Below, one piece after another: positions 6,499 through 59,800 of a stretch of 64,000 nucleotides of DNA. This DNA is from Adenophora triphylla var. japonica (lineage: Eukaryota > Streptophyta > Magnoliopsida > Asterales > Campanulaceae). The notes below the pieces were generated by a model, which saw only the letters and a program-made list of their open reading frames with translations, was not told the DNA's origin and made no database searches. Numbering within the stretch: position 1 is the stretch's first letter; each line of letters opens with the position of its first letter. The position numbers and the translations under genes are program-made. The stretch lies in contig JAFEMH010007460.1 in assembly GCA_022495995.1 (NCBI GenBank), forward strand, positions 1 through 64,000, written 5' to 3'.

Positions 6499-6540
6499 AT
6501 TTAAAAGATTCTGGAAAATCAGTAAAAGTCCGACCGGACT
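6499..6540 (-). promoter_or_regulatory. Antisense PMD promoter of element A with family-3 palindrome
   Basis: AGTCCGACCGGACT at 6527-6540 has perfect 6-bp arms around a 2-bp centre. On the minus strand a TATA-like CTTTTAAAT follows at 6507-6499, about 20 bp downstream, ahead of the decayed PMD first exon. The same palindrome type sits about 19 bp upstream of the TATA box in the family-3 LTRs (8523-8536, 34104-34117). Promoter activity is inferred. Confidence 0.6.
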
Positions 6541-6654
6541 CTTGCGCACCGAATAATTTTTGCCCCTTTTGCCCCTCAGCTTTTGGCAATTCCAATTTTA
6601 CCACTTTTGGCCCCCGAAAGTGTAAAATTTCCCCCAGTTAGACATTTCTAACGC

Positions 6655-6822
6655 CCTATCCCCCGAGGATAAATCAAAGTTAGTTCTCACTAACGCTCGT
6701 CTCCTGACGTTAAATTCAGTCCAGTTGACGTTTGACATTCAAACGTTCAACCATGTCTCCGGACATTTCAGTTACTATTCCGTCTCCCGACGTTAAAATT
6801 TAATAATGGTCCTCACCATTAA
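6655..6822. repeat. 3' region block with hairpin CGTTTGA-ATG-TCAAACG type sequence
   Basis: Reading toward the LTR, this holds one degraded round of the roughly 90-bp repeat that is amplified at 16136-16500 in element C (reverse orientation): GACGTTAAATTC, GACGTTTGACATTCAAACG, CCATGTCTCCGGACAT. It is non-coding 3' region of element A. Confidence 0.7.
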
Positions 6823-7140
6823 ATTCTCAATCGCGACCTTTCACGGTCCGATTCCAATCCTCAATCGCGACCTTTCACGGTCCGATTCCAATCCTCAATC
6901 GCGACCTTTCACGGTCCGATTCCAATCCTCAATCGCGACCTTTCACGGTCCGATTCCAATCCTCAATCGCGACCTTTCACGGTCCGATTCCAATCCTCAA
7001 TCGCGACCTTTCACGGTCCGATTCCAATCCTCAATCGCGACCTTTCACGGTCCGATTCCAATCCTCAATCGCGACCTTTCACGGTCCGATTCCAAGCCTC
7101 AATCGCGACCTTTCACGGTCCGATCTCAAACATTCAATCC
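6823..7140. repeat. 34-bp tandem array, about 9 copies (element A 3' region)
   Basis: The unit is TCAATCGCGACCTTTCACGG followed by TCCGATTCCAATCC, 34 bp, nearly perfect. It is the reverse complement of the array at 15215-16115 in element C, so it is a family-3 3'-region feature that differs in copy number between elements. The unit has no stop in some frames, giving a spurious 154-aa reading frame that I do not call a gene. Confidence 0.95.
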
Positions 7141-7189
7141 CGACCTTCGCGGTCCGACCTCCACTCTCTTATCGAGACCTTCGCTAGTC

Positions 7190-7615
7190 ATCTCACCGGC
7201 AACAGCAATAAGCCCGAACCCCAAGGCACGAACGCCTTGCAAGCAGTCATCTCACCGGCAACAGCAATAAGCCCGAACCCCAAGGCACGAACGCCTTGCA
7301 AACAGTCATCTCACCGGCGACAATAATGGCCCGAACCCCAAGGCACGAACGCCTTGCAAGCGCGGTCATCTCCGGCAGCGGCAATAAGCCCGAACCCCGA
7401 GGCACGAACGCCTTGCAAGCGGTCATCTCACGGCGCGGCAATGGCCCGAACCCCGAGGCACGAACGCCTTGCAGCATCTCAGCGGCATAGAGCCGAACCC
7501 CAAGGCACGAACGCCTTGCAACAATCCCTCTTCGGCCATCCGAGGTAAGCCGAACGCTCATCCCGGGGATAAAGCGCAACGACAATAAGCCCGGCACCCG
7601 AGGCACGAACGCCCT
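7190..7615. repeat. About 59-bp degenerate tandem repeat with hairpin AAGGC-ACGAAC-GCCTT
   Basis: Six or seven copies of a unit centred on CCGAACCCCAAGGCACGAAC and GCCTTGCAA. Each copy contains an inverted repeat with 5-bp arms. Related, shorter copies occur in reverse orientation at 14955-15150 in element C. It is non-coding 3' region. Confidence 0.85.
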
Positions 7616-7619
7616 CGTC

Positions 7620-8030: not shown

Positions 8031-8522
8031 CGTAAGTACCCAAATCCGGATCGTCCAAATCCGTCGGAAAGTTAACCGAAATCCGTTAGCGCCCGCTCCG
8101 AGGTTAACCGGAACTCGTTAAACTCCCCGTTGCCGTGCCAGCCAGACGTCCGGGGCTGCCCAGTGCATCCCGACGTGGAACCGTACTTAACACGTGACAT
8201 CTCACGTAAAAGTATGGCTTTCCCTGAAAAAACGCATTTTCCGGCACTTTCAGGGCGTTTCGGACATTTCCGGTGTTATTTTAAAAACGGACAAAACCGG
8301 GACCGGGGAACAATCTTCCACCTCAGCTGGTGACTCAGAGGGCACGTGGCAGCCATGCCACCTCCCTCTAGTCACCCTTCAATCAATTTCAAAGGTAAAA
8401 GACCAAAATGCCCCTGGTTTGCAAGCCAAGTCAGTAGGACTCACTTTGTGCACATTTTTTGAAATTGCCAAACAAGTCCTTCAAATTCCCAAAATACCAC
8501 AAAACCCCCTGGATTCAGGCCA

Positions 8523-8562
8523 AGTCCGTCCGGACTCCTACTGCAAATTTCACCTATAAATA
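8523..8562 (+). promoter_or_regulatory. LTR promoter of element A: palindrome plus TATA box
   Basis: AGTCCGTCCGGACT at 8523-8536 (6-bp arms) is followed 19 bp later by TATAAATA at 8555-8562. A second, decayed palindrome (AAGTCAGTAGGACTC) is at 8428-8442. This marks the U3/R region. Confidence 0.75.
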
Positions 8563-8999
8563 GAAATGGCTGTCAAAGCCAAAAAAGAGGATTTTTACAC
8601 CAAAAATCACCACCCCCCACGGTCCAAACTGGTTTTCACCCCTCCCGAGCTCCCGTTCTGTCTCGATTCGCGTGAAACCTTCGTATTTCGATCAAATACG
8701 CACCCTACAACTTCGAAACAACCTTTCGAATCACTTTCCGTGTCCCGTACACACCTCCCGAGCCAAAGGAGTCGACCCTAGCCATAGGTATAACTCCCTC
8801 TCTCTAAATCTCCCGTTCCGTCTCGGTTTACGCGCCAGTCGCTATAACTGTTTCGAACGTCGTTATCAAAATGTAGACGCCTCCGTCTAACGGGGTCCGA
8901 TACGTTTTAGCCCCTCGATCCTCTTCTCTTTCCGTAAGAGAAGTAATCACGGGTTAAAACGGCGTTCCGACCCCGTTCCGTTTACTTTTATGTCATTTA

Positions 9000-9115
9000 C
9001 AATTCCGAGCCGTTTGGCCTCGTTGATCGTCATTTACAATTCCGAGCCGTTTGGCCTCGTTGATCGTCATTTACAATTCCGAGCCGTTTGGCCTCGTCGA
9101 TCGTCATTTACGAAT
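9000..9115. repeat. 37-bp LTR minisatellite, 3 copies
   Basis: The unit contains GTCATTTACAATTCCGAGCC followed by GTTTGGCCTCGTTGATC. Sister LTRs have five copies (13383-13570) and three copies (33535-33650), so copy number varies. Confidence 0.93.
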
Positions 9116-9429
9116 CCGGATCGTTTGATTCCGTTGACACCGCTTTAAATACTGTCATTTACAAGTCCGATCCGTTTGGATTGTGATAGTATTTACTTTT
9201 CAAAGTCCGAGTCGCAACCCGATTCGTTGATCGCATATCATTTAATACGCATTTTTCCCGTAAAAATCGTTAACAATGTAATGCCCGGTTCAAAACCGGA
9301 GTTCGTCCGTCGAACTCTCTTTCAAAATGCGCGAAATGACGTTCGGCCTCCGAACGCTCATCTTCAAACTCAAAGCCGCCATTTGACACTTAAAATCATT
9401 TAATACGCATTTTTCCCGTAAAAATCGTT

Positions 9430-9640
9430 AACAATGACTCGTACGGTTCAAAGTCGACGTTTGCCACGCAAATGCTCATTTCAACTCAAAGTCGACGTTT
9501 GCCACGCAGACGCTCATTTCAAACTCAAAGTCGACGTTTGCCACGCAAACACTCTTTTCAAACTCAAACCGACGTTTGTCATTCAAACGCTCGTCTTTTC
9601 AAAAGTCACCTAATCAACGTTTGTCATTCAAACCAAGATT
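9430..9640. repeat. About 39-bp repeat with CGTTTG...CAAACG type hairpins in the LTR
   Basis: Four or five copies of CAAAGTCGACGTTTGCCACG-type units ending with CAAACGCTCATTT. Arms ACGTTTG and CAAACGC are kept while the loop changes. The same stem occurs in the 3' region at 16190-16490. Confidence 0.8.
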
Positions 9641-9727
9641 AAGCTTGTCATTCAAGCCCCCATTTCAAAAGACACACACACACATACACACGATTTCGAG
9701 AAAGGTAGAAAGACTCGTCATGCGAGG

Positions 9728-9780
9728 CGTTTCGGGCGATCTCGTCATACTCTACCCGAAACGTAACCTGACCTCCGAAC
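9728..9780 (+). other. R-U5 conserved hairpin and GTAACCTGACCTCCGAAC box
   Basis: CGTTTCGGG (9728-9736) pairs with CCCGAAACG (9755-9763) as a 9-bp stem, followed by GTAACCTGACCTCCGAAC at 9763-9780. Equivalent stems with different sequence occur in the other LTR families in this window. Confidence 0.75.
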
Positions 9781-10064
9781 CTAACAATCTCTGGTACAAA
9801 AAAGATTTTTACTCATTTTTGCTGCCAATAAAAATGATCCCCTTTTTCAAAAAAGCCTTTTCCTAAGTTTTTGCTACCAATAAAAACGACACCTTTTCAC
9901 AAAAGCCGTTTCTCAACGTTTGGGCTCAAAATACAAAAACCGCGTGGCGACTCCTCATTTTGTTCCTTCCCATGAAGCGAGGTCTCAGACACCAACCCCT
10001 CCGCGAAAGACAACCGCCTTTTCCGCGCCCCCCGCCCGCGCGCGAAAAAGATCGGGTAATTTCA

Positions 10065-10466
10065 AACTCGTAGCAAGTATTAAGGGGGATCCCTAGCAAT
10101 TCATTCAAAGCCTCCGAATGATTCCTATGGTACTTAGGAACAACAATCTCACCAGTCAAAGGCATATCCAAGATAATGGCAAATTCCTCCACAAGTAGGC
10201 ACCATCTCATTCAAAGAAAAATTGAAAAGATGGACAGAGGGATCCCAAAATCTAGCAGCACCCTACAACAGATTCCAATCCGGTTGGAGGTTCTTCAAGG
10301 TAAAAAGGATTCTGAATCCAAATTCTGCTATGAACCTATTGCGAGATCGGTTGCGAAACGAGCTCACAAAATCTCTTGATGCTTGCTTGAAGGCTTCAAT
10401 CACATCAGACGACAAAGAAAAATCATCGACAATTATGGACGTTGGGGCAATCTCCTTGGAAGCCAT
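10065..10466 (-). pseudogene. 5' part of antisense DUF7745-like gene of element 1b, cut by LTR A
   Basis: The start ATG is at 10466 (MASKEIAPTSII). The frame continues through LQPDWNLL, then an in-frame TAG near 10260, then GAARFWDPSVHLFNFSLNEMVPT, and after a frameshift near 10195 EEFAIILDMPLTGEIVVPKY up to the LTR junction at 10065. The (D)WxLLxAAxFWD and NEMVPTxEEF pattern is the same as in the family-4 copy (DWDLLRAAARFWD, NEIVPTNEDF) and resembles plant DUF7745 proteins. The gene lies downstream of the PMD gene of the same element. It is truncated by the insertion of element A and carries at least one stop and one frameshift. Confidence 0.8.
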
Positions 10467-10565: not shown

Positions 10566-10666
10566 TTTTTATAGGGAAAACTGACAAAATCCCGTTCGAA
10601 AAAGGAAAAGGATTCTACCTGGATAGCGTGTCTCGTGCGAGACACCTCGTCCCGCGCGAGATATCG
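10566..10666 (-). promoter_or_regulatory. Promoter of antisense DUF7745-like gene of 1b: two family-1 palindromes and TATA box
   Basis: GTGTCTCGTGCGAGACAC at 10628-10645 has perfect 8-bp arms; CGTCCCGCGCGAGATAT at 10649-10665 is a second, partly decayed copy. On the minus strand TATAAAAA follows at 10573-10566, about 55 bp downstream of the nearer palindrome, and the ATG is 100 bp further at 10466. The palindromes match those in the family-1 LTRs (20667-20684, 36640-36656). Confidence 0.75.
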
Positions 10667-11008: not shown

Positions 11009-12522
11009 TCACGCCATCAAGTCGCCCGAGCTGCCGTCATCTGCGCCATCATCTCCACGGGGGCTACCATCCCACCTCGACCTCTTGGCTCCACAATTAG
11101 GGGTCACCGCCGAGGCCACTGTCGAGGCCACCAAAGAAGCCTTATGGAACAGCCTCTCGGACAAGTCCGACACCAGGGCCATCAGTCCCGCCATCCTGGT
11201 CGCTCCACGGTTGTAATCGGCCGCGGACAGAGTGATCTGACAACAAAAGAAAAGAAATGCTCAGATGAAGTCGGACATATATACTTATATGGACGAGTAC
11301 GAGAGATGATATGAACAGAAACATACCGAGGAGACATCCGGCGGAAGGCGGTAACCCTCGGGAATATGATCCAGAGTCGGGATGTGGCCCATCATTGGCA
11401 TGCTCCCCATCATGTACGTGTAGCTCAAAGGACCGAAGTTTGGGGCGAAAGGCAGAGAACCACCAGACTGGGAGGAGGTACTGGGGGCTGATGAACCTGA
11501 GGCAGAGGCAGAGGCGGAACCACGAGCGTGCGATCGTCTATCACCCACCAGGAGGGGACCCATCAGCTGTGGCAAAAACTCCTCATAGGAGGCCCCGTGG
11601 ACAACACAAGCTGTTGCCGCATCACCCACCAGAAGACTAGCATAATCGTCATCTAGAATGGAGTGGGTGGGTTACATCGCCCTAGGCGGATCCGCTGGCA
11701 CCATATATGGTAGTCTACCCCGGCCATGCTGTGGGAAGACCCGCTCACTAAGGTACATAGTATCCCCCTCCAAAGATGCCAGCATCCTCTGCATCCCAGT
11801 GGCATCCCAAGCACGATGCACCTCCTGCTCCAACAGGGTCCATGGATAAAGGCCCAGCCTCTCATATTCGAAAGTGTCCAGCATGGCCCGCGCCTCTACC
11901 ACCGTTAGGGTCCACTCCTGATCCTCATCCTCATCAATGCTCCGATTGGGGTGGCTCCACCTCCTGATATCCGAGAACAAAGGGGTCCGGCTCTCCAACT
12001 CAAACTTGTACAGCCCAAGGACAGTATAGCCCCATATCTGCACAAGAAAATAATAGCAGTTCAGCACGAAATATAGACAAAGGCTACAAATAAAGGACAG
12101 AAACAGAACCAAGAGCATACCTCCCAAGCATAAGAATACCCCGATAGGGTATCCTTGGTGTGCCTACACGCCTCATCCATGGCGTGATAGCAGAAGGCCA
12201 GCCCCGCTGAGCCCCAATCATATCCACTCACCTCATCCAGATTCACCAACAAACCTAACAGAGAAAGATGAGCCGTAGAAGAGTGGTTCGCAAAGATGGT
12301 CTCAGAATGAATATACCAGAGGGCACCCCTCACCAACCGATCAGTAACTGCATTCGGCTTGAGCGCATAATTCTCAATCTGATGCCGGAGGGGTGTTAGC
12401 TCAGCAGCAAATCCCTTAACCTTGTTAGGGACAAAACCGATCAGCTGTCTCCACACAGCTGGACCCGCAGGCTTATAACCCGAGGTCTTCGGCAGGGGAT
12501 CGCCAATGAACTCTAGCCCCGT
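11009..12522 (-). pseudogene. 3' part of antisense PMD gene of element 1b (exons 2 end to 4)
   Basis: This continues in frame from 34614 on the other side of element C. The rest of exon 2 (12522-12121) holds VWRQLIGFVPNKVKGFAAEL, then the NLDEVSGYDWGSAGLAFCYH block typical of PMD. Intron 2 runs 12120-12038 (GTATGC...TGCAG). Exon 3 (12037-11327) holds WTLTVVEARAMLDTFEYERL and later a Ser/Ala-rich stretch (RGSASASASGSSAPSTSSQS). Intron 3 runs 11326-11237 (GTATGT...GTCAG). Exon 4 ends with a stop at 11009. One in-frame TAA at 11674-11672 and the 22-kb insertion are the main defects; otherwise the frame is well kept. PMD proteins are nuclear in the studied Arabidopsis cases; here the role is unknown. 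Confidence 0.82.
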
Positions 12523-14538
12523 TGAAATTACCCGGATTTTGCGCGCGGCAAAAGCGGTTGTCTTTCGCGGAGGGTTGGTGTCTGAGACCTCGCTTCATGG
12601 GAAGGAACAAAATGAGGAGTCGCCACGCAGTTTTTGTATTTTGAGCCCAAACGTTGAGAAACGGCTATTGTGAAAAGGTGTCGTTTTTATTGGTAGCAAA
12701 AACTTAGGAAAAGGCTTTGAAAACGGGGATCATTTTTATTGGCAGCAAAAACGAGTAAAAAGCTTTTTTGTACCAGAGATTGTTAGGTTCGACGGTCACG
12801 TTACATTTCGGGTAGAGTATTACGAGATCGCCCGAAACGCCTCGCATGACGAGTCTTTCTGCCTTTCTCGAAAACGTGTGTGTGTGTGTGTGTGTGTGTT
12901 TTGAAATGGGGGCTTGAATGACAAGCTTAATCTTGGTTTGAATGTCAAACGTTGATTAGGTGACTTTTGAAAAGACGAGCGTTTGAATGACAAACGTCGA
13001 TTTGAGACAGAAATGAGCGTTTGCGTGGCAAACGTCGATTTTGAACCGTGCGAGTCATTGTTAACGATTTTTACGGGAAAAAACGTATTAAATGATTTTG
13101 AGTGTCAAATGGCGGCTTTTAAGTTTGAAGATGAGCGTTTGGATGCCAAACGTCATTTCGCGCATTTTGAAAGAGAGTTCGAAGGTCGAACTCTAGTTTT
13201 GAACCGGGCATTACATTGTTAACGATTTTACGGGAAAAACGTATTAAATGATATGCAATCAACGAATCGGGTTGCGACTCGGACTTTGAAAAGTAAATAC
13301 TATCACAATCCAAACGGATCGGACTTGTAAATGACAGTATTTAAAGCGGTGTCAACGGAATCAAACGATCCGGATTCGTAAATGACGATCGACGAGGCCA
13401 AACGGCTCGGAATTGTAAATGACGATCAACGAGGCCAAACGGCTCGGAATTGTAAATGACGATCAACGAGGCCAAACGGCTCGGAATTGTAAATGACGAT
13501 CAACGAGGCCAAACGGCTCGGAATTGTAAATGACGATCAACGAGGCCAAACGGCTCGGAATTGTAAATGACATAAAAGTAAACGGAACGGGAGTCGGAAC
13601 GCCGTTTTAACCCGTGATTACTTCTCTTACGGAAAGAGAAGAGGATCGAGGGCTAAAACGTATCGACTAGATTAAGTTAGGCGGAGGCGTCTACATTTTG
13701 ATAACGACGTTGAAAGCAGCTTATAGCGACCGGCGCGTAAACCAAGACGGAACGGGAGATTTAGAGAGAGGGAGTTATACACATGGCTAGGGTCGACTCC
13801 TTTGGCTCGGGAGGTGTGTACGGGACATGGAAAGTGATTCAAAGGTTGTTTCGAAGTTGTAGAGGTGCGTATTTGATCGAAATACGAAGGTTTCACGCGA
13901 ATCGAGACGTAACGGGAGCTCGGGAGGGGTGAAAACCAGTTTGGACCGTGGGGGTGGTGATTTTTGGTGTAAAATCCTCTCTATTTGGCTTTCGTTTGAC
14001 CATTTCTATTTATAGGTGAAATTTGCAAAGAGGAGTCCCTGACGGACTTGGCCTCGAATCCAGGGGGTTTTGTGGTATTTTGGGAATTTGAAGGACTTGG
14101 CCGGCAATTTCGAAAATGTGCACAAAGGAGTCCTGAGCCGACTTGGCTTCTGCAAACCAGGGGCATTTTGGTCTTTTCCCTTTGAAATTGATTGAAGTGT
14201 GACTAGAGGGAGGTGGCATGGCCGCCACGTGCCCTCTGAGTCACCACCGAGGTGGAAGATTGTTCCCGGTCCCGGTTTTGTCCGTTTTTTAAAATAATAA
14301 AACGGAAATGTCCGAAACGCCCGGAAAGTGCCAGGAAAATGCGTTTTTAAATCCATACTTTTACGTGAGATGTCACGTGTTATACGTGATTCGACGTCGG
14401 GATGCACGGCGGCGTCCCGGGAGCGTCTCGTTGGCACGGCAATGGGAGTTTAACGAGTTCGGTTAACCCGGGAGCGGGCAGTTAACGGATTTCTGCTAAC
14501 TCCGACGGATTTGGACGATCCGGATTTGGGTACTTACA
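12523..14538 (-). mobile_element. 3' LTR of element C
   Basis: A 2016-bp LTR in minus orientation. It is 82 bp longer than its partner at 32680-34613, mostly because of two extra 37-bp units. The palindromes upstream of its TATA box (about 14033-14049 and 14128-14144) are decayed relative to the partner LTR. A (TG)n run lies at 12870-12899. Confidence 0.95.
13383..13570. repeat. 37-bp LTR minisatellite, 5 copies
   Basis: Five near-perfect copies of the unit beginning GACGATCAACGAGGCCAAAC. Sister LTRs have three. Confidence 0.95.
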
Positions 14539-15190: not shown

Positions 15191-15214
15191 GAGTGGAGGT
15201 CGGACCGCGAAGGT

Positions 15215-16115
15215 CGGGATTGAATGTTTGAGATTGGACCGTGAAAGGTCGCGATTGAGGCTTGGAATCGAACCGTGAAAGGTCGCGATTGAGAATTGGA
15301 ATCGGACCGTGAAAGGTCGCGATTGAGGATTGGAATCGGACAGTTAAAGGTCGCGATTGAGGTGGGAATCGGACCGTGAAAGGTCGCGATTGAGAATTGG
15401 AATCGGACCGTGAAAGGTCGCGATTGAGGCTTGGAATCGGACCGTGAAAGGTCGCGATTGAGGCTTGGAATCGGACCGTGAAAGGTCGCGGTTGAGGATT
15501 GGAATCGGACCGTGAAAGGTCGCGATTGAGAATTGGAATCGGACCGTGAAAGGTCACGATTGAGGATTGGAATCGGACCGTGAAAGGTCGCGATTGAGTG
15601 TTTGAGATCGGACCGTGAAAGGTCGCGATTGAGGATTGGAATCGGGCCGCGTGAAAGGTCGCGATTGAGGCTTGGAATCGGACCGTGAAAGGTCGCGATT
15701 GAGGATTGGAATCGGACCGTGAAAGGTCGCGATTGAGGATTGGAATCGGACCGTGAAAGGTCGCGATTGAGGATTGGAATCGGACCGTGAAAGGTCGCGA
15801 TTGAGAATTGGAATCGGACCGTGAAAGGTCGCGATTGAGGATTGGAATCGGACCGTGAAAGGTCGCGATTGAGGATTGGAATCGGACCGTGAAAGGTCGC
15901 GATTGAGTGTTTGAGATCGGACCGTGAAAGGTCGCGATTGAGAATCGGAATCGGACCGTGAAAGGTCGCGATTGAGGATTGGAATCGGACCGTGAAAGGT
16001 CGCGATTGAGGATTGGAATCGGACCGTGAAAGGTCGCGATTGAGTGTTTAAGATCGAACCGTGAAAGGTCGCGATTGAGGATTGGAATCGGACCGTGAAA
16101 GGTCGCGATTGAGAA
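15215..16115. repeat. 34-bp tandem array, about 26 copies
   Basis: The unit is GGATTGGAATCGGACCGTGA followed by AAGGTCGCGATTGA, with scattered variants such as GTGTTTGAGATC. Because 34 is not a multiple of 3 and the unit lacks stops on one strand, it produces a spurious 347-aa frame. It is a family-3 3'-region array (9 copies in element A). Confidence 0.95.
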
Positions 16116-16135
16116 TTTAATGGTGAGGACCATTA

Positions 16136-16680: not shown

Positions 16681-16739
16681 CGGGAGAGGGGGTCGGTTGA
16701 CGTGTCCACTACCAAGAGTAGGGGAGATGACGAGAGGTG

Positions 16740-17515: not shown

Positions 17516-17545
17516 GGATCTCACGAGGAGATAACGGGAGAGGAT

Positions 17546-21529: not shown

Positions 21530-21530
21530 G

Positions 21531-46376: not shown

Positions 46377-46489
46377 AGATTTGAACGGGCATTGGGCATT
46401 ATTGCCGCCCAAGAGCTGCCGAGGAAGAGAGAGAAGAGGGAGAGAATTTCTTCAAAATCCTTCAATTCCCTTTGCTTCTATTGATTGGA

Positions 46490-49426: not shown

Positions 49427-49508
49427 AGCCGTGCGGTTTTGTCCAGAGGGCAAATGATGCCGTGCGGCTCACAGTTCTGTCTGAACTGGTTATTTTCTGA
49501 ATAAAAGC
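49427..49508 (+). promoter_or_regulatory. Promoter of antisense DUF7745-like gene in family 4
   Basis: AGCCGTGCGG (49427-49436) and GCCGTGCGGC (49459-49468), then a TATA-like GAATAAAAGC at 49499-49508, with the ATG at 49607. Palindromes are of the family-4 type. Confidence 0.7.
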
Positions 49509-49606
49509 AAGGCTTGGCCATTTCATTTCATTTTCAACTTAGACTTGTCCCAATTGTTCCCAGAGCACATTTTGGACTTAAAGACACCATCTTTGGTCAT
49601 TTTGCA

Positions 49607-51106
49607 ATGGAGAAGCCTGTTAGATTGCAAAGGGGGAAGCGAGACCGTTTTCTGTCCGATCTTCAATCTTGGGTGAAGCATAACTTCCAATCTCACAAGG
49701 GGATGCTTGATTCTTCCTTCAAGATCAAGTCATTATGGCATTTGAGGGATCTCCCGCTCGATTGGGACCTTTTGAGAGCAGCAGCAAGGTTTTGGGACGT
49801 CCGGAGACATGTTTACTGCTTTTCTTACAACGAGATTGTCCCAACGAATGAAGACTTCCAAGCCTTGATTGGGGGTCCAGAAATTGAGGCTATATCTATT
49901 CCGCTGGTCGGAGACGTGCCGGTAGCGGTAAAGCTTGCATCTTTTCTGCAGATTTCTTTGGAAGAGGCTGAGGGGATGATGATAGCCCCGGACAGGATTG
50001 ACCTTTCTGGTATCCCGGGCAGGTTTGGGTCTCCGGCTATGGCTGCGACCACGGTGGCTATGGATGCCTTCATTCTCTGCATATTTTCTGCTTTGTTCAC
50101 CGCTGAGTCCGTGGGGATCTGTCATGGTGGTCTCTTGGACATGGTCAGAGACTGCAGGACTGGGAAGGACATTGTCCCCTTGGTTTTGGGAGAGACATTG
50201 CATGGCATCGATAGGATGGCTAGGGGAGACCATTTCATGAGGTCTGGGAGTCCGGCTGTACTGACTTTGTGGCTGCAGGAGAGGCTCGGGGCTTTGCCAG
50301 GGGCTTTGCCGACTCAGTGCCCTTGGGTGATTTCTCGGAGAGGTGCACCGAGGCAACAGGACCAGGGTAGGCCAGGAGGCGACGATGGCTAGGCTATCCA
50401 CTTCGGACATGCGTTGGTGGATACCTCATTGGAGGTTGCAGACCAGGAGGATATTTCGGGAGTCTTATGATGTGAGGGTTCCGGGGTTCTGCTGGTCGTC
50501 CTTCTACATTCCACTGCTTGGTATCCGGGCGGTTTGGGGCTTTACGAGCCATTGAGTGATTGGGAGGACATCCAGACCATGGAGGTGGTGCCATTGGACA
50601 TGAGAGATCCAGCCGGCTTCTCATTTTTCTCGAGGGCTTGGACATATCTTGCTTTCCCACCCGGGGCTATCTTCGGGAGCGGGAAGAGTACCATCTTGAC
50701 CACCGTCTACTTGGGCAGTACGAGAGGGAAATGGGAGCGACTCGAGGTCATTCTGGGGGAGAGACGTCGGGCTTTTATTGGGAGGCGGCGACTCGAGTAG
50801 GACTACGAGGGAGGCGAGGATAAGGCGAGTCGCCATAACCAGTCGGGTGACCTGATCAGGGATATGGAGGCTCGATACAAAAGATTGTCCGAGGTCTCTC
50901 CTTTGACTGAGGCTCAGAGGGAGGAAGTGCGGACTCGTGCTCGTGTAGAGAGGGCACTTATTGACACGGGTTTGATAGAGGCTCCAGTGAGGATACCGGA
51001 GATCGGGATAATGGATACCGACCTTATAGAAAAGAAGATAAAGAAAACTCGACGAGGTCGAGGTAAAGGGATGAAGACCAAAGAAGACTCAGCGAATGAC
51101 GACTGA
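49607..51106 (+). pseudogene. Antisense DUF7745-like gene of family 4, frameshifted near its 3' end
   Basis: MEKPVRLQRGKRDRFLSDLQ opens a frame open to 50392. Visible blocks are LWHLRDLPLDWDLLRAAARF, FSYNEIVPTNEDFQALIGGP, VKLASFLQISLEEAEGMM, VAMDAFILCIFSALFTAESV and VLGETLHGIDRM, then LTLWLQERLG. After a frameshift near 50390 come RWWIPHWRLQTR and FYIPLLGIRAVWG, then further frame changes, YHLDHRLLGQYEREMGA and a basic, Arg/Lys-rich tail ending in a stop at 51106. It resembles plant DUF7745 proteins (name from memory) and shares a general build with mobile-domain proteins; the function is unknown. The start is chosen as the first ATG after the TATA-like box that keeps the conserved N-terminal block. 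Confidence 0.82.
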
Positions 51107-51399
51107 CAGATCTTTTCTTAGGATTCCCTTATTGCCATTTTGCAAGCACATTAGTTTATTTAGGCATTTTTTTTTATTTTAGATCTTTGTAGCAGGTTAG
51201 CAGAGTCAAGCGTAGACCGTGCTTGAACTCATCAAGAAGTTTTTAACTTGTAATGAACAAGAAATATTATCTTAGAAATTAATCAAGACACATTTCATTC
51301 AAATGTCTTATTGATTGGGACCCGTTTTATGAAAATTGAAATACCCTTTATTATTTAGGACGCACTTCATGGAAGCTTGATTGTCCTTTTTATTGTTTA
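51107..51399. other. Spacer after the antisense genes of family 4
   Basis: AT-rich, with no coding signal. It would be the 3' UTR of the DUF7745-like gene. Confidence 0.6.
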
Positions 51400-51715
51400 G
51401 ACCGAACCATATATGGCTGCCTACGTTCCCCTTTTACAAGAAAGACTAAGGGGCTCAGGTCTTCGTAGTTCATTTTGGTGAACTATATATATTTTTTCTT
51501 TTTCTTTTTTTCTCTATTCTTTTATGTCCAGCCCTGTTTTTTGCCTAGACCGCCCTTTTTGGGGTTTTCAGCCTAGCTGGGCATTACTCTTTTTGCACTA
51601 AGATTTTTTTTCTCTTTTTTTTTTTTATGTGCAACCCTGTCTTTTGCCTAGACCGCCCTTTTTGGGGTTTTCAGTCTAGCTGGGTATTACTCTTTTTGCA
51701 CCCTTTTTTTTATTT
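51400..51715 (-). other. Conserved post-pol block and duplicated CTAGG hairpin block
   Basis: 51544-51605 and 51647-51712 (minus) are two copies of the GCCTAGACCGCCC...GCCTAGCTGGGC block (plus reading), related to 24672-25522. 51400-51472 is the GAACTACGAAGACCTGAGCC block (minus), matching 1487-1557. Several T-rich runs lie between. Confidence 0.75.
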
Positions 51716-54700
51716 TAGACATAGTATCTTTTGAGCTTATCACCGTTGACTGGGTGGACAAAGGGATTGCCGTCCAGGTCTGCAAGCTTCATGGCTCCTC
51801 CCGATAGTATCTTCTGCACCACATAAGGGCCGATCCAAACGGGTTCCCATTTTCCCAGGGGGTTGTCTGCGGTAGGGGGCTTCACTTTCAACACTAAGTC
51901 ACCCTCTTTGATGTCTCTGGCCTTAACCTTTTGTCAAACGCTCGGCCATCCGCCTCTGGTAGGCTCGGGTGTGTTCCATGGCTTTTAGCCTTCTTTCATC
52001 AAGGAGGGCCAACTCATCATGCCATGCGCAACCATTCTACTTCATTGACACTATTTTCCAGGAGGACCCTTAATGACGGGATTTCCAACTCCACCGGTAA
52101 CACCGGCTTCCATCCCGTAGGTTAAGGCAAAAGGAGTTTCTCCTGTAGGCTGTTCGACAGACGTTACGTAGCCCCGAGTGCCAAGTGCGGCTTTTCGGGC
52201 CAATCGCGACCACGGGTGGCCATTTTCTGGATGATCCGTTCGAGCGTCTTATTAGCAGCTTCCACGGCTCCATTAGTCTCGAGGTCTGCGGAGACGACTT
52301 GTGGCGAGTGATTCTGAATTCGACGGCAACCTATCGCAGTCCCCTTCAAAGTGCGACCCATTATCGGAAATGATCTCGTTGGGCACCCCATATCTGCACA
52401 TTATGTTTTCTTTGATGAATTGGGCCACTTTTCTGGAAGTGAGGACCTTGTAGGACTTGGCCTCTACCCACTTGGTAAAGTAGTCGATGGCTACTAGCAC
52501 AAATTCATGTCCATTGCTTCCTGCCGGGGCTATTTTCCCTATCACGTCAATACCCCAAGTTGCAAACGGCCAAGGAGTCGTCATGCAGTACAGGTCATGA
52601 GGCGGGAGATGGTTGAGGTTGGCAAATCGCTGGCACTTGTCGCATGCTCGGACGTGCTGGACACAGTCTGTTTCCATGGAAATCCAGTAGTAACCCATTC
52701 TGAGGATCACTTGCATCAGGGCTCTGGCATTCATATGAGGACCGCAGGGACCATTGTGGACTTCAGTCATCAACTCTTTGGCCTTTTCTCGAGTGACGCA
52801 CAAGAGGAGTGGTCCTTGGTACCGCTTCTTGTATAGGTTGCCTCCTAGAATGACATAATGGGAGGCCAACCTTTTCAGGGCTTGTAAGCTCTTAGCTCTG
52901 ACACCTTCTTTTGGTCTACCTTCTTCGTCTCTGAAAGCTGACTCTCCATCTTTGAGGAACTGGTAAATTTGATTGTACCAGGGTTCCTTTATAGGCTCGG
53001 GTCCCAGGTCTACTTCACAACAGAAGGCTGGGGCTTCTCTTCTACCCACTCTGAAGGGTTTTATGGCTTTTCCCTCGGGAATCTCTACCAATGAGGCTAG
53101 AGTAGCTAGGGCATCTGCGAATCTGTTCTTTTCCCTTGGCAAGTAGTGGAAGGTCACTTCTACGAGCTGTCCGATCCAACTCCTCCATATGGGCATGATA
53201 CCGCTGCAGATTAGGGTCCACAGTCTTCCATTTGTTGGAGACCTGGTTGATGATCGGGTGAGTCTCAGTAAACTTCTAGCTCCTTGACATTCCTTTCTAA
53301 GGCGGCTTCCAAACCGGCAATGCGAGGCTTCGTACTCGGCAACATTGTTCGTGGCGGGAAGTTCAACTTGAGGGCTATGGGTGTATGCTCATCTTTCGGA
53401 TTGACCGGTAGCATCCCGATGCCATTTCCTCTTTTGTTAGCGGCTCAGTCAAAGAATAATTGCCATCGGTTTTCGGGCTCGACCGCAAAGATCCCTTCAT
53501 CTTGGAATTGGGGTTCGGGCCCTCTGTCTTCATTGCTTGGGGAAGTTTGCCGGGTGGTCGACAATGCTTGACCCTTGATGGCCTTTACGGTCACATAGTT
53601 GATGTCGTACTCTGCTAAGAAGAAGGACCACTTTGCTAGACGCATCGAGAGGGAAGGCTTATCAAAGATGTACTTGATGGGGTCCATTTTTGAGACAAAA
53701 TTCACGGGGTGGGCTTGCATATAATGCTTCAACTTGCCGACTACCCGAGACCGATCCTACGGGTCTTTTCACACGCCGAGTAATTGAGCTCACTTCCACT
53801 GCAGGCTTCCGGTGACAAAGTAAATGGCATTCTCTACCCGAGAGTCTTTCTTTTCTGAGCAAGCATAGCCCCAGCTGCCGTATCGGTGACGGTGAGATAG
53901 AGCGTAAGAGGTTTCGTCTATGTGGGGGCATAAGTACCGGAGGATGTACCAAGTATGCCTTGATGCAGTCAAAGGCATCCTGGCATTCTTCGGTCCATTA
54001 CGTGTCTACGTTCTTCTTCATGAGCTTGAAGATGGGCTCGCACATAGTGGTCAATCGATTGACGAAACGGCTAATGTCTTTGCGGTTTTCCCATAAAGCT
54101 CTTGACTTTATGCATCGGGTCCGAGGTGGCCTCATATCCATAATGGCTTTGATCTTTTGGGGGTCAACTTCGATACCTCGCTCCGTGACCATATACCCAA
54201 GCACTTTCCCCTTGTCACTCCGAAGGTGCATTTAGCAGGGTTTAGTCTCATGGAATGTTGTCTCAGCCTCTCAAAGAACTTCCGCAGGTCAACAAAGTGC
54301 TGCCCGTCCTAGCCTTTGGAGTGGATTATCATGTCGTCTACGTAGACCTCAATCTCCTTGTGGATCATGTCATGAAAAATCGCGGTCGCTGCCCTTTGGT
54401 AAGTAGCCCCGGCGTTCTTAAGCCCAAATGGCATCACTGTATAACAGTAAGTTCCCCACGGTGTGGTGAAGGCTGTCTTTTCTTGGTCTTCCTCGGCCAT
54501 CTTGATCTGGTTGTAGCCTGCAAAGCCATCGACGAAGGATTTGACTTCGTAGTTCGCAGTGGAGTCCACGAGGATGTCTATGTTTGGCAAAGGGTAATCG
54601 TCCTTGGGGCTGGCCTTGTTCAGATCTCGAAAATCCACACAGCAGCGCACCTTCCCATTGGCCTTGGTGACGGTCACAATATTGGATAACCATGTCGGAT

Positions 54701-55075
54701 ATTCGATGACTCTGATGAATCCTACCCGCAGTATCTTCTCAATCTCTTCTTTGACCTGTAGAGACCACTACGGCTTGATCTTCCTTAGTTTACATTTCTT
54801 GGCTTAGCATACTGGTGCTAGAGGGATTATGTGCTCTACTATCGAACTGTCTAGCCCGGCATATCCCATGTATGACCATGCAAACACGTCGACGTATTCC
54901 TGAGCGGATCGATCGGTCTGTCCCGTTCAACCCCACGGAAGAAGTTTCCGATCTGTGTCTCTTTAGGTTCCTCGACGGTACCCAAGTTCACACTTGTCAA
55001 AACCTCCTCGGCGGCTTGGGCCCGGTTTTCCTCTTTTACGAAACACCTTAAAGATTTCTTTAATGTATTGTTCAT
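51716..55075 (-). pseudogene. pol: Pol of the family-4 element: RT, RNase H, second (archaeal-type) RNase H, integrase
   Basis: Minus order: pre-RT linker (55075-54790, VNLGTVEEPKETQIG). RT has VRCCVDFRDLNKASPKDDYP, MPFGLKNAGATYQR and the catalytic YVDD at 54344-54333. RNase H (53960-53560) ends MRLAKWSFFLAEYDINYVTV. The second RNase H (53460-53080) has WQLFFDG, ATNNVAEYEA and LPREKNRFADALATLASL. The integrase HHCC region lies near 52780-52640; its core has WGIDVIGKIAP, IISDNGSHFEG and NGAVEAANKTLE. The GPY-type end is WIGPYVVQKILSGGAMKLAD, finishing near 51718. Two RNase H domains mark the Tat lineage. At least eight frameshifts or stops disable it. In a working element it would reverse-transcribe and integrate the element. 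Confidence 0.92.
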
Positions 55076-56223
55076 TTAGTGTGTTTGCATCTTGTTCAAA
55101 TGATTCATTATTAAGCTTGTTGTTAAGTTTTGAGTTAATTTATCATTTGTTAAGTTGGCAATAAGAGGATACTCGAAAGATCTGTCATTTCATTCAAAAT
55201 AAGGGGAAAGATGACATCGATTACATTTTGATAGTCCTCGGGCGTGAGGCCTTCGGATGACTCGGAAGGGTGGAATTCAAAGGTTCTGACTCGGCGTATA
55301 GACACTCGACTCTGGACCCTACACTACTTATTGACTCGAGGGTGGCTTGACAAAGGTTGGACCGGGATCTCACTCCTTCTTCTTTGTTGCCACAGGGAGT
55401 AGTAGTCTTGTCGGCGTTCTTGAGAAAGTTGGAGACTTCAAATTGATCAAAAACTTGCCGGAAATCATTGACGGGCCGGTACCGTGGAAAGATAGTGAGG
55501 GAGCTAGAGTAGCTTGATGCAATCTCTCGGCGAGCTCGTCCGTTACAAGCTGGGCTCATTGGCGAAGAGTCGGCTCATCTTATCAATGCACTGGCGATAA
55601 CTCATTTTCTCTTTGCTGATCTTGGACACCACGACCTTGTCATATAGCCAACATGAGGTTTGGCACGGATAATCTTGATGAAGTCTTCTTCGGAGGGGAT
55701 CTGAATTCTTCCTTGAGCGCTACGTATTCAATAGGCTTTACGTATTACTGCTTCTAGATCTGCTAGCTTCTCATTGAACTTCACGATGGCCACAAATTCA
55801 GCACTTTCTGCTTCAAGAGGATCACTGTTCATGGGGGTATCAGGCTGGATTGTGCTTTGAATGATGGGTTTCTTGGCGGGCTGTTTAGCATAGGCGACAT
55901 AGTAATCGAACTTGCCGAAGGCTCCCCTAGAGTTCCGACGCTCTTGTCTTGGCTTCATACCTTTCCTTTAACTTCATTGTGTGGACTTTCTCTTCTTCTT
56001 CTTTCTCGAAGGAGCGTCTTCATTAATCCATTCTTGATACTCATACTCCAGGGCAGTCCTCACGATCGCATACATCATACCATATGTGAGGCTTGGGCTG
56101 AACTGGGATGGCCTCTCCGACTACTTGGTCATTACCATTGTTGACTACCATGTTGGCCGTTTTGACACCGAAAAGCCGGCAAAACCGAGGATTCGCGAGC
56201 CGTTCAGAATTCTGCGCTAACAA
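55076..56223 (-). pseudogene. Remnant between gag and RT of the family-4 element
   Basis: Broken frames read MVVNNGNDQVVGEAIPVQPK, then WINEDAP, then FGKFDYYVAYAKQPAKKP, LADLEAVIRKAY and QIPSEEDFIKIIRAKPHVGY. I do not recognise a defined domain; by position it lies where PR, G-patch and linker would be. No LIDxGS protease site and no PF03732 gag were found, so gag appears deleted. Confidence 0.6.
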
Positions 56224-57873
56224 GTCGGCGACCCGGTGTTCTCACCCACTTCTTTCTCGCTGCGGGAAAGGGATAGGAAAGGTTTAGACTCGGGGTAGGT
56301 GTTTAGGAGTGAAGGCTCGGGCAATATGCAAATTAGAATCTTCCGGTTTACTTAAAACAATGTCTTTTCCTAATATCTATTTGGTTGGAAAAGGGGATTT
56401 GCCCTTCTTTTTCGTAACTACTCTAGATCCTGGATCGGTGGGTTACGTCACTACGTCTATAAGCCCTCGTATTCCACCTGTATTTCGACCTCCCGGGGTG
56501 GACGGCCCGGGCGAGGGTCCTATAGGGCACGCGGATCCCACCGACCAGGAGTAAGAAACGCTCCTAACGGGTCTAGCGGGTCATAGGAACTTTCAACGCA
56601 CGAGCGATGCGGATTATAGTCAAGGCAATACGGGAAAGTCTCGTCTTTACGCCTTGATAGAATTTTGGCGAGAATTTCGCTTGAGCGAATGACGTTTGAC
56701 TTTCGGTAATGTCCGAGAAGATAATAGGCATGGGTCGGGCGGCAAAAGCCGGATGACACGGTGTCACATTGAACTTCGTTGCATACGCGGGCGTGAGTTA
56801 GAATCGAAGTCAATCTTAGGGTCAAGATCTTGCCAATTTTTCCTTGTCGGAATTTTAGCAGAGCTTCGCTTGAGCGAAAGATCTTTTGATTTGTTGGCAA
56901 AGACTCGGTCTTGACTTTTACGCATTCCGTGCAGGTCAAGGTCAATAGTCAATGTCGGAGTCGAGATCTCGCCAATTTTTCCTTGTCGGAATTTTGGCAG
57001 AGTTCCTCTTCCGTTATGAACTAAGGCTTGACCTTTACGAGGGTATGCAAGCTGGGCTATATGACACGGACTAGACCAAAAACCAACCAAAAGTCACGGT
57101 TTTTTGAAACGTGTGACACGGACTATGCATTGGTCGACACTGGCGGCCTTGGGGAGGTTGGGATGATTCCGTGCGCGCCCGGGAGCATCGTAAGGCTGTC
57201 TGTGACTGCAGCTGGAACCACCCTCGGGTTTGAAGGACGTGCGTGCAAAGTGTACAGGATATATCAGGTGCGCGTAGTGTGCGGTCTCATAAAAATGTTC
57301 ATTTTTGAGTTAAAACAGAGATTTTCATAATGTGTTTTAAAGGAATGATTTTCGAGACGGGGAAAATGCAGCACATAAGCATGTAAATTTTCTGGGAGCC
57401 CCAGTCAGTCATGGAGCTGAGTAGCCCCAAGCTGCTAGGACTGCCAGATTAGCCTCAATTTTTCCTGGTGGAATTGCCACTGAGGTCGCCCGGTCAGAAT
57501 CCAAGGAGGATTGAGCCGTACGACTGCATGGATCAATTTTCCAGGTTCCACTCCTTTTGCTATTTTTCGGGTTGTTTCCCGTTCAAAGTATGCACAGATT
57601 CCAAGATGCAAATGATGCAATGCAAGGTAAAAAAAGCAAGCACGATTAATGAAATCAGCGACGGGAGTCTAACCCGCTCAAAGGGAAAAGCTTTCTTTTA
57701 TATTTTTTTTCAAATTTTTTTTTCGAAAAGGGATACTGGTACGTGGGATTGTTAAACCACCGGTTATCCCAACTCCCACATCAGGGAGTGTACAGGAAGG
57801 GCAAGTGGTTTCCACCTATATACCGAGTATCGATTTTTTGTTTTGAAAATAAAAGCTTTTCTCCTTTGAGATT
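56224..57873 (-). other. Leader of the family-4 element
   Basis: Non-coding. Two rounds of a roughly 130-bp repeat (56800-57010) contain GCCAATTTTTCCTTGTCGGA. Hairpins TTCGC-TCAA-GCGAA (minus) lie at 56689-56676 and 56878-56865. 57512-57525 has AGCCGTACGACT, a decayed family-4 palindrome, and 57483-57495 a second (TCGCCCGGT). 57720-57870 is T-rich. Confidence 0.65.
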
Positions 57874-57891
57874 TCCCCAGCGGAGTCGCCA
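57874..57891 (-). other. Primer binding site of the family-4 element
   Basis: TGGCGACTCCGCTGGGGA in minus reading, 3 nt after the 5' LTR end. Confidence 0.88.
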
Positions 57892-57894
57892 AGC

Positions 57895-59602
57895 TGTGAA
57901 TGTGTGCCCAAATTTTTATGTTTGTTGGATTCACGCGAGTTTGAAGACATCCGGTTTAATTTGAAAAACGGAGTCGCCACGCCATTTTGATTACCTCAAA
58001 ACTTTGAAAAAAGGTTTTATGGGTTCGGAGGTTAAGTTACCCCTTGGGAAGAACGGATCATCGTTCACCCAAGGTGCCTTGCCGGAGCAAGTCTCCCAAG
58101 ATCCCATTAATCGTGCTTGCTTGCGTGCTTTCTTGTGTGCATGTGTTTGAAAATAAGGAGGGAATGTCCCAAGTCGTCTTCCGGACGTACAAACCATTTG
58201 TTGGTTGTCGCTCGGGATTTCTTGGATTTTATGTATTCGGGATTATGATCCCGTCCTCATCTTGGACTTGTGATCATCGCATTTTTGGACCTTGGGACTT
58301 GCGTGATCGAGAGAATGACTCTCTTTATAGTCAAAGATGAGGTTCTTTAGAAAAGGAGGGTCCTTAGCCCATCAATCCTACACTTTAAGATGGTCGAGCT
58401 CATATAGATGCTTCATACTCATCTTAAGTGATAATCGGAGATATAGGGTTCAAAGGTGTCCCTTTCTAAAGAGATTATGAAACCTTTATGGAAGGAACGA
58501 TGTAAAGATAGGATCTTTTACACCGGTCCGTTCCGAGGTTACTAATGGGGGAATGGGGGAATGCATGTAAAAATGACATTTTTAATGAAAAGATGACATT
58601 TTTGAGTTGCAAAGGATGCATTTGGTTTAAAGAAATGATCTTTATTGCAAAGGATGCATAAAGACACAATTTTTATGCAAATGATGCATTTTTATGAAGA
58701 AATTGGAATTTAATATGAAAAGGATGCATAAAGATTGCATTTTGAAAAGCATAGGATGCTAGTTTATGGTAAAGACATGATCTTTAAAGCAAATGATGCT
58801 CGGAAAAGGGATTTTGAATGCAAAGGATGCATTTTGATTGGAAAGATTTGATTTTTATATGCAAAGGATGCATAAAGATGAAATTTTTATGGAAAAATGG
58901 GGTTTTAGGTGCAAAGGATGCATCTTCATGGATAAAAACTACATTTTTAATGGCAAATGATGCCTAATGCATGCAAAGGGGAAGGGGGAATATAAAGATA
59001 TGATCTTTAATCTACCAAGTCCCAAGCAAGATAAAAGCAATGCAATGAGCAATTATAGAGCAATTAAGAAGCAAGGTTAGGGCGTGCGAGGTTACCAATG
59101 GCTTCCTTTTCTTCTTTGGATGAAGCTAGGAGGAGAGGATTGATCTTGAACCTTCAAGGAGGAGGGAGATAACTTCTTGAGCTTCTTCTTCACCTTCTTG
59201 AACTTCCAGCTGCTCTTGGGAGGTTTCTTCACGTATTATGAGTATTTGTGGGTGATTTTGTTCATGATCAAAATGGGTAGAGGAGGGCTCTATTTATAGG
59301 CAGTCTGGAAATTGCCAATGAAGCCGTGCGGCTAGGGACCTCGAGCTAATGCAGCCGTGCGGCATTATCCCTTGTGACTCAACATTTCTAGAACCATGCA
59401 AGGTGGCAATATCTAGAAGCCTCCTCCCAATTAAGAAAAACGTGTTTCTTAATTGGGAAGGCTCCCTTTCAGCCTTTAATCAATTTGGAACAGTTCCGGA
59501 ATATTTCCGGAACACTAGGAAGGTCCGGGGAATTACCGGGAAACTTACCGAAATTGCCGGGAAATTTAACCGGAAGGCATGAGCCAGATTTGGGTACTTA
59601 CA
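57895..59602 (-). mobile_element. 5' LTR of the family-4 element
   Basis: 1708 bp, about 99% identical to 43641-45350. Palindromes are AGCCGTGCGGCT (59322-59333) and GCCGTGCGGC (59354-59363), with the TATA box at 59298-59291 (minus). Confidence 0.96.
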
Positions 59603-59726
59603 CTTAGGAATAACAAAAAAGCCTAGGACCTCGCTGGAATGTGTCATTTCCAAGAAAGAAGGGAATATTGACCAAGGGAGAATAGCCAAAACAACTTTCT
59701 ACAAAAAACAGGCACGCTGCTGATCC

Positions 59727-59800
59727 CATCCGCGCGGATGAGATTGTAGCCACAAACTCATCCACGAGGATGAGATTGTACCCTGGCCAACCTATAAATA
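59727..59800 (+). promoter_or_regulatory. Family-5 LTR promoter: palindrome pair and TATA box
   Basis: CATCCGCGCGGATG (59727-59740) is a perfect 14-bp palindrome; TCATCCACGAGGATGA (59758-59773) has perfect 6-bp arms. TATAAATA follows at 59793-59800, 19 bp on. A further decayed pair lies downstream at 60757-60773 and 60787-60804. Confidence 0.8.

Follow-up and report, generated by a model that had tools for sequence, protein, structure and literature searches.

Why should retrotransposons of one lineage, packed into a single nest, each carry a palindrome of their own in front of their TATA boxes, and what could read it? This question is raised by 64,000 nucleotides of Adenophora triphylla var. 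japonica (assembly GCA_022495995.1, contig JAFEMH010007460.1; here called the window), which are a nest of Tat-type Ty3/gypsy elements, designated B, C, D, E1, F, G and H. Antisense genes for a DUF7745 protein (PF24924) and a plant mobile domain (PMD, PF10536) protein are found in B, D and F, and in B and D they lie between the integrase (INT) and the 3' long terminal repeat (LTR); the antisense genes of F, whose pol is absent from the window, were judged only as far as F lies in it. An earlier, sequence-only reading of the same DNA had described five families of CG-centred palindromes near the TATA boxes of LTRs and of antisense promoters. The palindrome belongs to the element and not to the LTR alone.

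In D the half-site AGTCCG..CGGACT is present at the LTR (8523), the PMD promoter (6527) and the DUF7745 promoter (3381); the last site, which has one mismatch, had been missing from the earlier list. F shows (T)ATCTCG..CGAGAT(A) at its LTR, PMD and DUF7745 promoters with 2-3 mismatches in 14, and AGCCG..CGGCT marks both LTRs as well as the PMD and DUF7745 promoters of B. The non-autonomous element C has the sites of D, and E1 has those of F. The half-site defined by the element's own LTR beats shuffled sequence in 6/6 antisense promoter regions of B, D and F (P 0.0005, 0.0005, 0.004, 0.0045, 0.023 and 0.004; combined 2e-10), and 0/12 tests of foreign half-sites at antisense promoters were significant (smallest P 0.114).

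All five palindromes quoted earlier are perfect (20667, 21660 and 27130 for family 1, 38786 for family 2, 34196 for family 3, 46334 for family 4 and 59727 for family 5), and the palindrome and TATA coordinates listed with them agree with our rescan. Perfect palindromes of at least 12 bp with a CGNNCG centre number 10, compared with a mean of 0.56 and a maximum of 2 in 100 dinucleotide shuffles. A blind ranking of the 256 CGNNNN half-sites (spacer 2, one mismatch allowed, expectation from 15 shuffles) placed CGAGAT, CGGACT, CGAGAC, CGGCTA, CGGACC and CGGCTT at the top, which correspond to families 1, 3, 1, 4, 2 and 4 and thus to four of the five families. Family 5, that of H, has a different form, CATCC-N4-GGATG; its single sites are weak (9 vs 3.45 in shuffles, maximum 8), and its paired form occupies the two best places in the window with 1 and 2 mismatches in 20 (best shuffle 4). 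The arms differ among the five families, as had been said, with the restriction that the half-sites of families 2 and 3 are related (CGGACC and CGGACT). Two generalisations went too far. A centre of CG-N(0-2)-CG does not hold throughout, the second H copy CATCCACGAGGATG having a single central CG, and not every Tat LTR is equipped: a CGNNCG palindrome of at least 5 pairs is found within 200 bp upstream of 8/10 canonical boxes (CTATAAATA[GC]) and within 200 bp downstream of 0/10, against a background of 5.6% of 638 windows of 200 bp, and only decayed sites are left in the C 3' LTR and the F LTR. The palindromes contain 65 CpG in 438 bp, their flanks 70 in 3,492 bp, the sites having partly been picked by CpG.

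That the copies are mostly paired proved to be true in a stricter sense than claimed, since spacing is a family property (Table 1): measured start to start, F/E1 sites lie 19-20 bp apart, B sites 29-31 bp, H sites 31-32 bp, G sites 30 and 107 bp and C sites 92 bp. Among 18 modules the nearest palindrome end lies 14-30 bp before a TATA-like box in 12, and the longer distances noted before were recovered, too (55 bp at F DUF7745 and 149-152 bp in three E1/F LTRs). One of the two E1 leader modules is followed by TATAAA 177 bp on, and the other lacks such a box within 220 bp. At several antisense promoters the box has a non-canonical sequence (TTTAAA, TATTTAAA, AATAAAAG and TAATATAA). A scan of the whole window for paired sites of the B type ranked the LTRs and antisense promoters of B, two of each, as the four best places (1-2 mismatches in 20; best of 100 shuffles 4, next best place 5). 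The F/E1 module occurs at seven places, namely both E1 LTRs, twice in the E1 leader and at the F LTR, F PMD and F DUF7745 promoters. The six best of these, one leader module among them, have 1-5 mismatches in 28 (best shuffle 5, shuffle mean 9.5), the F LTR and F DUF7745 modules at 5 in 28 only equalling the single best shuffle. In leader module 1 the centre of the first site is 3 nt long; this module has 7 mismatches in 28 and a comparable position in other genome copies.

In the window itself it can be seen where the sites are, that they are mostly paired and that promoters within an element match; for F/E1 the fixed spacing recurs elsewhere in the genome. In the genome of the source species (2.48 Gb) the family-1 18-mer was found at 3,609 places and a reversed control at 0. 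Twenty stretches of 10 kb were fetched, 18 around isolated places among the matches listed and 2 around clusters. F/E1 sites less than 130 bp apart in L012-L035 are spaced 19 bp in 33/36 and 20 bp in 3/36 pairs (34 distinct pairs, as L012 and L013 are contained in L016 and L017). Placement is likewise regular: the U3 site lies 157-175 bp before TATA at 22/24 CTATAAATAC boxes, and the leader site 113-137 bp after a TGGCGACTC of the primer binding site (PBS) type in 15/20 fetched loci. F-type PMD copies preceded by palindromes are present in L020 (77% identity) and L026 (74%), and a DUF7745 copy preceded by palindromes in L019. L026 was retrieved through its own promoter palindrome; L019 and L020 were retrieved by another palindrome, so that their promoter sites are free of retrieval bias. 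In the L020 site TGTATCGTGCGATACA both arms are changed together, and the form GTGTCTCG..CGAGACAC, common to L019 and the F DUF7745 promoter of the window, is unlike the LTR form on both arms. With the retrieving 18-mer removed, the outer positions of 46 distinct module sites pair in 126/184 cells vs 115.0 when permuted (standard deviation 4.8, P=0.0165), a statistic that ignores kinship; 88 partnerless core sites, intended as a control, also pair above independence at outer pairs 1-4. Bystander LTRs read by eye repeat the pattern of other families, one of B type in L025 (spacing 31, same CATTAGC flank) and one of C/D type in L030 (spacing 91, distal copy decayed). Bystander TATA boxes as a whole give a weak signal, with a CpG palindrome at 5/17 vs 15% of random windows, and some of these boxes probably lie outside LTR promoters. 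Two further observations from these loci concern other palindromes. L032 holds another DUF7745 gene (6494 +) preceded by the different, H-like palindrome TCCGCGCGGA (6430-6450). L028 has a cluster (2608-2770) of palindromes such as CTTGGGCGACCGCCCAAG, somewhat similar to Sirevirus boxes, and the same 18-mer is found upstream of the L043 PMD gene.

These arrangements suggest that each family may be switched on by a factor of its own. We hold it to be probable, if by no means certain, that the modules are paired operators for one trans-acting factor per element family which switches the whole element, and that this factor most likely comes from the antisense genes. Each Tat family would have a private operator before the sense LTR promoter and before the antisense DUF7745 and PMD promoters. 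It would usually consist of two dyad-symmetric sites, most half-sites following CG(G/A)N2-4, and the distance between them, fixed within the family, corresponds in the majority of families to roughly two or three turns of the helix. Two dimers of one factor would bind cooperatively near the TATA box; one factor would serve all promoters of the family and so turn the whole element on together. Being most likely an antisense-gene product, it would close a self-regulating circuit, and it may act by activation or by protection from silencing. Non-autonomous relatives (C with D, E1 with F) would borrow the factor through the common operator, and a change of half-site would release a family from the factor of its relatives or from their silencing. 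A bolder version, somewhat less likely than not in our view, is that the PMD proteins encoded by these transposable elements (TEs), and perhaps the distantly similar DUF7745 proteins, are sequence-specific dimeric readers of the private palindromes, LTR and antisense genes forming a closed regulon whose password is rewritten as families split, and that the host proteins MAIN and MAIL1 are tamed descendants of such readers. If true, the plant mobile domain and the Tat antisense genes would gain a function, the coupling of non-autonomous to autonomous copies would be explained, and a retrotransposon parallel to VANC anti-silencing would exist. The matched private operator makes the function of the Tat antisense genes and of the plant mobile domain directly testable.

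The best sign that the PMD product could be a palindrome reader comes as a hint from PMD genes elsewhere in the genome. PF10536 has at least 149 matches there, from 36,013 candidates of which 115 were scored, and the matches listed do not include the copies in the window. Upstream DNA was taken from 20 listed PMD genes (8, then 12), chosen before their sequence was seen, and compared with 8 stretches picked arbitrarily. Within the 1.5 kb upstream, at least two CpG-bearing palindromes occur in 10/20 PMD pieces, in 0/8 arbitrary stretches and in 5/83 comparison slices of L016-L035 without the family-1 core. The 20 pieces form 10 or 11 similarity groups, five of which have such repeats in a member. 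Related pieces mostly have the same palindromes and unrelated pieces have others: CGGCATT..AATGCCG is common to L038, L040, L052 and L054, TCCGGAATT..AATTCCGGA plus GGAGCGATCGCTCC to L036, L037 and L039, and the CGAGCTCG type is carried by L047 and L050, whereas L049, which is related to them, lacks it. Many of these palindromes lie 0.8-1.1 kb before the domain, a distance like that in the window (B 46334 vs a frame open from 47342, D 6527 vs 5517). This suggests that a link between palindromes and PMD may reach beyond the elements described here. In B an acidic tail in a reading frame downstream of PMD and a basic stretch in a frame just past the PMD promoter are only suggestive. Between B and D the identity is 49-78% for INT (in pieces), 29-34% for DUF7745 and 38-44% for PMD, and change in the antisense products thus seems quicker than in pol, as would fit a changing specificity but also weak constraint.

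Some candidates and side observations on these proteins may be added here. A kinship of DUF7745 and PMD was proposed by a single comparison with P0001 (E=0.008) and was rejected; the B PMD gave no match. The protein search returned one PMD relative and no DUF7745 relative. Repeated 23-bp palindromes, ACTCGCTACACCGTGTAGCGAGT, stand upstream of the PMD genes of L042 (oriented -2101 to -1937) and L053 (-1401), perhaps in a different transposon class.

A number of points weigh against paired operators read by antisense products. The antisense regions had been delimited after the half-site matches were known, which weakens the P values given above. Among the PMD pieces 3/20 have one palindrome and 7/20 none; the definition of a palindrome was fixed after the first eight pieces had been inspected, and only 4/12 of the later ones have two or more, two of these being kin to earlier pieces. 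The sampled PMD genes were taken from the Pfam listing irrespective of membership in Tat or other LTR elements. Pfam gives no known DNA-binding domain for DUF7745 or PMD, and a fold model of PMD is uninformative (pLDDT 33). A CpG island was not seen at the modules (observed/expected 0.30-1.21, window mean 0.92). Finally, what the sequence-only reading had taken as a site coevolving with a dimeric reader retains its dyad symmetry, its differing arms at like placement and the match of LTR and antisense promoters, and loses its expected conservation above flanking U3: between E1 and F LTRs the four palindrome windows are 56-72% identical, within the 24-98% spanned by the others, the arrangement of sites being kept, and in three C/D LTRs 3/6 sites are decayed.

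Comparable systems are known, and their accounts in PubMed Central (PMC) are cited here from excerpts. The earlier statement that no description for Tat was known agrees with our searches of the open-access PMC literature, in which no account of a cis-element shared by a Tat LTR and antisense genes was found. The kind of box as such, however, is published for Sireviruses. These Ty1/copia elements have RM boxes, family-specific palindromes upstream of the LTR TATA box, CGG/CCG-based in all but one element and with arms differing between elements (Bousios et al. 2010, PMC2829016). As in the window, they occur upstream of the LTR TATA and of an additional gene, which is ENV-like there. However, Sireviruses have 8-32 copies per element in clusters forming CpG islands and a core CGG..CCG, and the window has 1-3 copies per promoter, no CpG island and a core CCG..CGG or CTCG..CGAG, mostly in fixed-spacing pairs with extra copies before two antisense genes. 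In addition, the superfamily is another one, as reverse transcriptase (RT) precedes INT in B, which is the Ty3/gypsy order, and the host element is therefore not a Ty1/copia Sirevirus. The window case works like Sirevirus boxes, yet it fails two of their defining features, namely a copia host and CpG islands formed by numerous copies.

Antisense accessory genes of Tat/Retand elements are likewise known, such as Grande gene23 and Retand TRP28 (PMC11963269, PMC7264820). For Grande gene23 an own promoter, a nuclear product and a proposed transcriptional regulatory role are given in the same sources. The term 'palindrom' appears in the reference list only of the available part of PMC11963269 and is absent from that of PMC7264820, and the antisense domains of the window are PMD and DUF7745, not the TRP28 domain (PF04195) of Retand. 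A further parallel is VANC of the VANDAL elements, an element-encoded sequence-specific factor with a family-specific, fast-changing motif in its own non-coding DNA (PMC5735166, PMC10398659). VANDAL, however, is a DNA transposon with short motifs in dense arrays of the same orientation, the excerpt of PMC5735166 does not contain 'palindrom', and binding and methylation loss have been shown there by experiment (PMC5735166), whereas the present case is known from sequence alone. The host PMD proteins MAIN and MAIL1 are needed for transcription of genes with a common promoter motif, DOWN (PMC7156037, PMC9899485). This motif (CATGCAGTTT in the MORC1 promoter) is not palindromic, and direct binding was not shown according to the excerpts of these two papers. 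TE-encoded PMD has been proposed as counter-silencing (PMC8616336), and among the non-canonical domains of plant gypsy elements PMD is reported to be the most frequent (PMC9289625).

Should the reader be a host protein, stress-related or developmental transcription factors would bind the palindromes, different families using different factors or variants, a reading that has been suggested for Sirevirus boxes. This is unlikely in our view, although the PLACE matches of Sirevirus boxes are mainly to stress-factor sites (PMC2829016, excerpt) and 4/5 half-sites of the window retain CG(G/A) beside the centre, as a single protein family would need. Five half-sites are found within one 64-kb nest of one lineage, and in B, D and F the half-site is common to the promoters of the element itself, and the antisense promoters of the other two lack it. 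A host factor offers no reason for this within-element match, common descent excepted, which counts against it. Common descent by itself, with a module copied by template switching or gene conversion and without present function, is a still less probable explanation, for which the flanking bases of B speak. They match when read in the sense of the element but fail to match when read in the direction of the promoter (identity of the 3' flanks 0.57 against a null of 0.28, 0/5000 shuffles as high; LTR vs antisense flanks 0.58 in sense and 0.21 in promoter polarity), and the own LTR sites of H and G also have matching 3' flanks. The B polarity suggests that modules have been copied from LTR to internal sites or the reverse, perhaps while the element was being reverse-transcribed. 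Such polarity was not seen in D (0.27 vs 0.32) or F (0.38 vs 0.46), where flanks are above shuffles without it (D 5' flank 0.46, P 0.0002; F on both sides, partly because each site is the flank of the other). Copying accounts for the origin of the match, but not for fixed spacing across copies, TATA placement and two-sided dyad changes, and as a mutational route it is compatible with paired operators.

The palindromes might also act in genomic RNA, as hairpins, dimer-initiation palindromes or sources of small interfering RNA, which we regard as highly improbable. The regular place of the leader modules past the PBS-type motif would fit this, as would the small-RNA hotspots formed by Sirevirus palindromes (PMC5311732, excerpt), and every module except the 5' U3 copy would also belong to the sense genomic RNA. 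On the other hand, 13/18 modules lie at most 75 bp upstream of a TATA-like box and are outside the transcript of that promoter, and a loop would hardly fit into perfect palindromes of 12-18 bp whose centre is 2 nt long. Two candidates for additional shared sequence were rejected. A TTGC-like companion box 3' of the palindromes is weak (family-wise P 0.019 for 3-mers and 0.015 for 4-mers, inflated by relatedness). A likeness of the DNA between palindrome and TATA box, with palindromes masked, gave z=2.9 for D PMD vs B PMD in DNA that is too short, and the highest value among 55 pairs was z=6.0 for D PMD vs B LTR.

The nest was resolved from self-comparison, LTR starts, PBS and target-site duplications (TSDs), and domains were placed by tblastn. 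F (+) is split by D and C, and H (+), whose LTR starts at 43525, by B. The PBS TGGCGACTCCGCTGGGGA, which we take to be of the Tat/Ogre type, is exact in E1, C and B and has two mismatches in G. A pol domain was not found in E1; C and E1 contain gag-type pieces without a match to B INT, RT, DUF7745 or PMD queries (E 1e-3). In B the RT is followed by RNase H pieces (PF17917/PF17919) and then by PF13456 at the start of the INT frame, a candidate for the second RNase H that Tat elements have before INT (E 3.5e-5 to 4.8e-4, all below the curated cut-offs). The B PMD reaches 54.2 bits to PF10536, above the curated cut-off of 34.9, and the B DUF7745 24.2 bits to PF24924, just below the curated cut-off of 26.

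Table 1 Palindrome modules and element parts in the window (sites are given by their start; spacing is start to start, in bp)
Feature	Position	Strand	Remarks
D LTR palindrome AGTCCGTCCGGACT	8523-8536		18 bp before TATA; decayed second copy 8429
D antisense DUF7745 promoter palindrome AGTCCGTGGGACT	3381-3393		20 bp before TTTAAA (read on -)
D antisense PMD promoter palindrome AGTCCGACCGGACT	6527-6540		21 bp before TTTAAA (read on -)
C 5' LTR palindrome pair	34104-34209		sites 34104, 34196; spacing 92
C 3' LTR palindrome, decayed	14034-14048		
E1 5' LTR module	20649-20683		spacing 19; second LTR 27112-27146
E1 leader module 1	21641-21676		spacing 20; 110 bp past PBS start
E1 leader module 2	22672-22707		spacing 20; before gag
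F DUF7745 promoter module	10629-10663		sites 10629/10648, spacing 19; TATAAA 55 bp on (read on -)
F PMD promoter module	35536-35570		sites 35536/35555, spacing 19; TAATATAA 14 bp on (read on -)
F LTR module, degenerate	36621-36655		sites 36621/36640, spacing 19
G LTR palindromes	38650-38802		38650, 38680, 38787 AGGTCCGTACGGACCT; spacings 30 and 107
B 3' LTR module AGCCGTGCGGCT/AGCCGTGCGGCA	45070-45112		sites 45070/45101, spacing 31; TATA 23 bp on
B second LTR module	59322-59364		sites 59322/59353, spacing 31
B PMD promoter module	46305-46345		sites 46305/46334, spacing 29; TATTTAAA 21 bp on
B DUF7745 promoter module	49427-49469		sites 49427/49458, spacing 31; AATAAAAG 30 bp on
H LTR module CATCCGCGCGGATG/CATCCACGAGGATG	59727-59772		spacing 32; TATA 20 bp on
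H second module	60756-60802		spacing 31
D, 3' LTR (end approximate)	8031-10041	+	92% to C 5' LTR; TATA 8554
D, INT pieces	55-747	+	tblastn
D, antisense DUF7745	3206-2525	-	tblastn
D, antisense PMD	5517-4946	-	tblastn with B PMD only
C, non-autonomous, in the PMD gene of F	12523-34613	-	TSD ACGGG
C, LTRs	32680-34613 (5'), 12523-14538 (3')	-	
E1, inside C	20467-27995	+	TSD ATGGG; LTRs 98% alike; gag found
F, remains of antisense DUF7745	10194-10391	-	tblastn E 6.8e-9
F, antisense PMD, cut by C	12064-12522	-	Pfam PF10536 5.2e-8, 32.9 bits, just below cut-off 34.9
F, 3' LTR (end approximate)	36439-37409	+	TATA 36805
G, 5' LTR (end approximate)	38442-39784	+	PBS 39786
B	43641-59602	-	TSD CTAAG on own strand; LTRs 99% alike
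B, RT	54767-54312	-	
B, INT	53388-52276	-	
B, antisense PMD, 339-residue open frame (stop to stop)	47342-48358	+	PF10536 1.7e-14
B, antisense DUF7745, 295-residue open frame (stop to stop)	49505-50389	+	PF24924 2e-5

Outside promoters, single B-type sites are found at 26839 and 36348 (before the E1 and F 3' LTRs) and at 57514 (B leader). With looser limits, C/D-type sites appear at 28197, 28466 and 34630, and F/E1-type matches also in a tandem array at about 16.8-17.5 kb. Just downstream of the TATA-like box of D PMD a perfect 24-bp palindrome, GGAAGAAAATGGCCATTTTCTTCC, is located at 6464-6487. A short inverted repeat about 80-120 bp before the 3' LTR reads AGCCGTACGGCA in E1, AGCCGTGCGGCC in F, GACCGCCTCGGTC in H and GACCACTTCGGTC in B (26839-26850, 36348-36359, 43400-43440 and 45340-45500). 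It comes after a GATACGTAGG string in B, C, D, F and H and looks like a separate 3'-end feature.

For INT and PBS no relatives were found in IMG/VR, and 11 PBS matches in prokaryote contigs were judged from their surroundings to be chance. The G 5' LTR and the H 3' LTR, unlike in sequence, bound one gag-bearing internal region (38442-43645), a possible recombinant element. The non-autonomous C has a G-patch domain (PF01585) at 17747-18622. Large tandem arrays with units of 20-80 bp are present inside C and D (5829-5955, 6822-7157, 15200-17788 and 29820-31524), and a 34-bp tandem unit is common to both elements.

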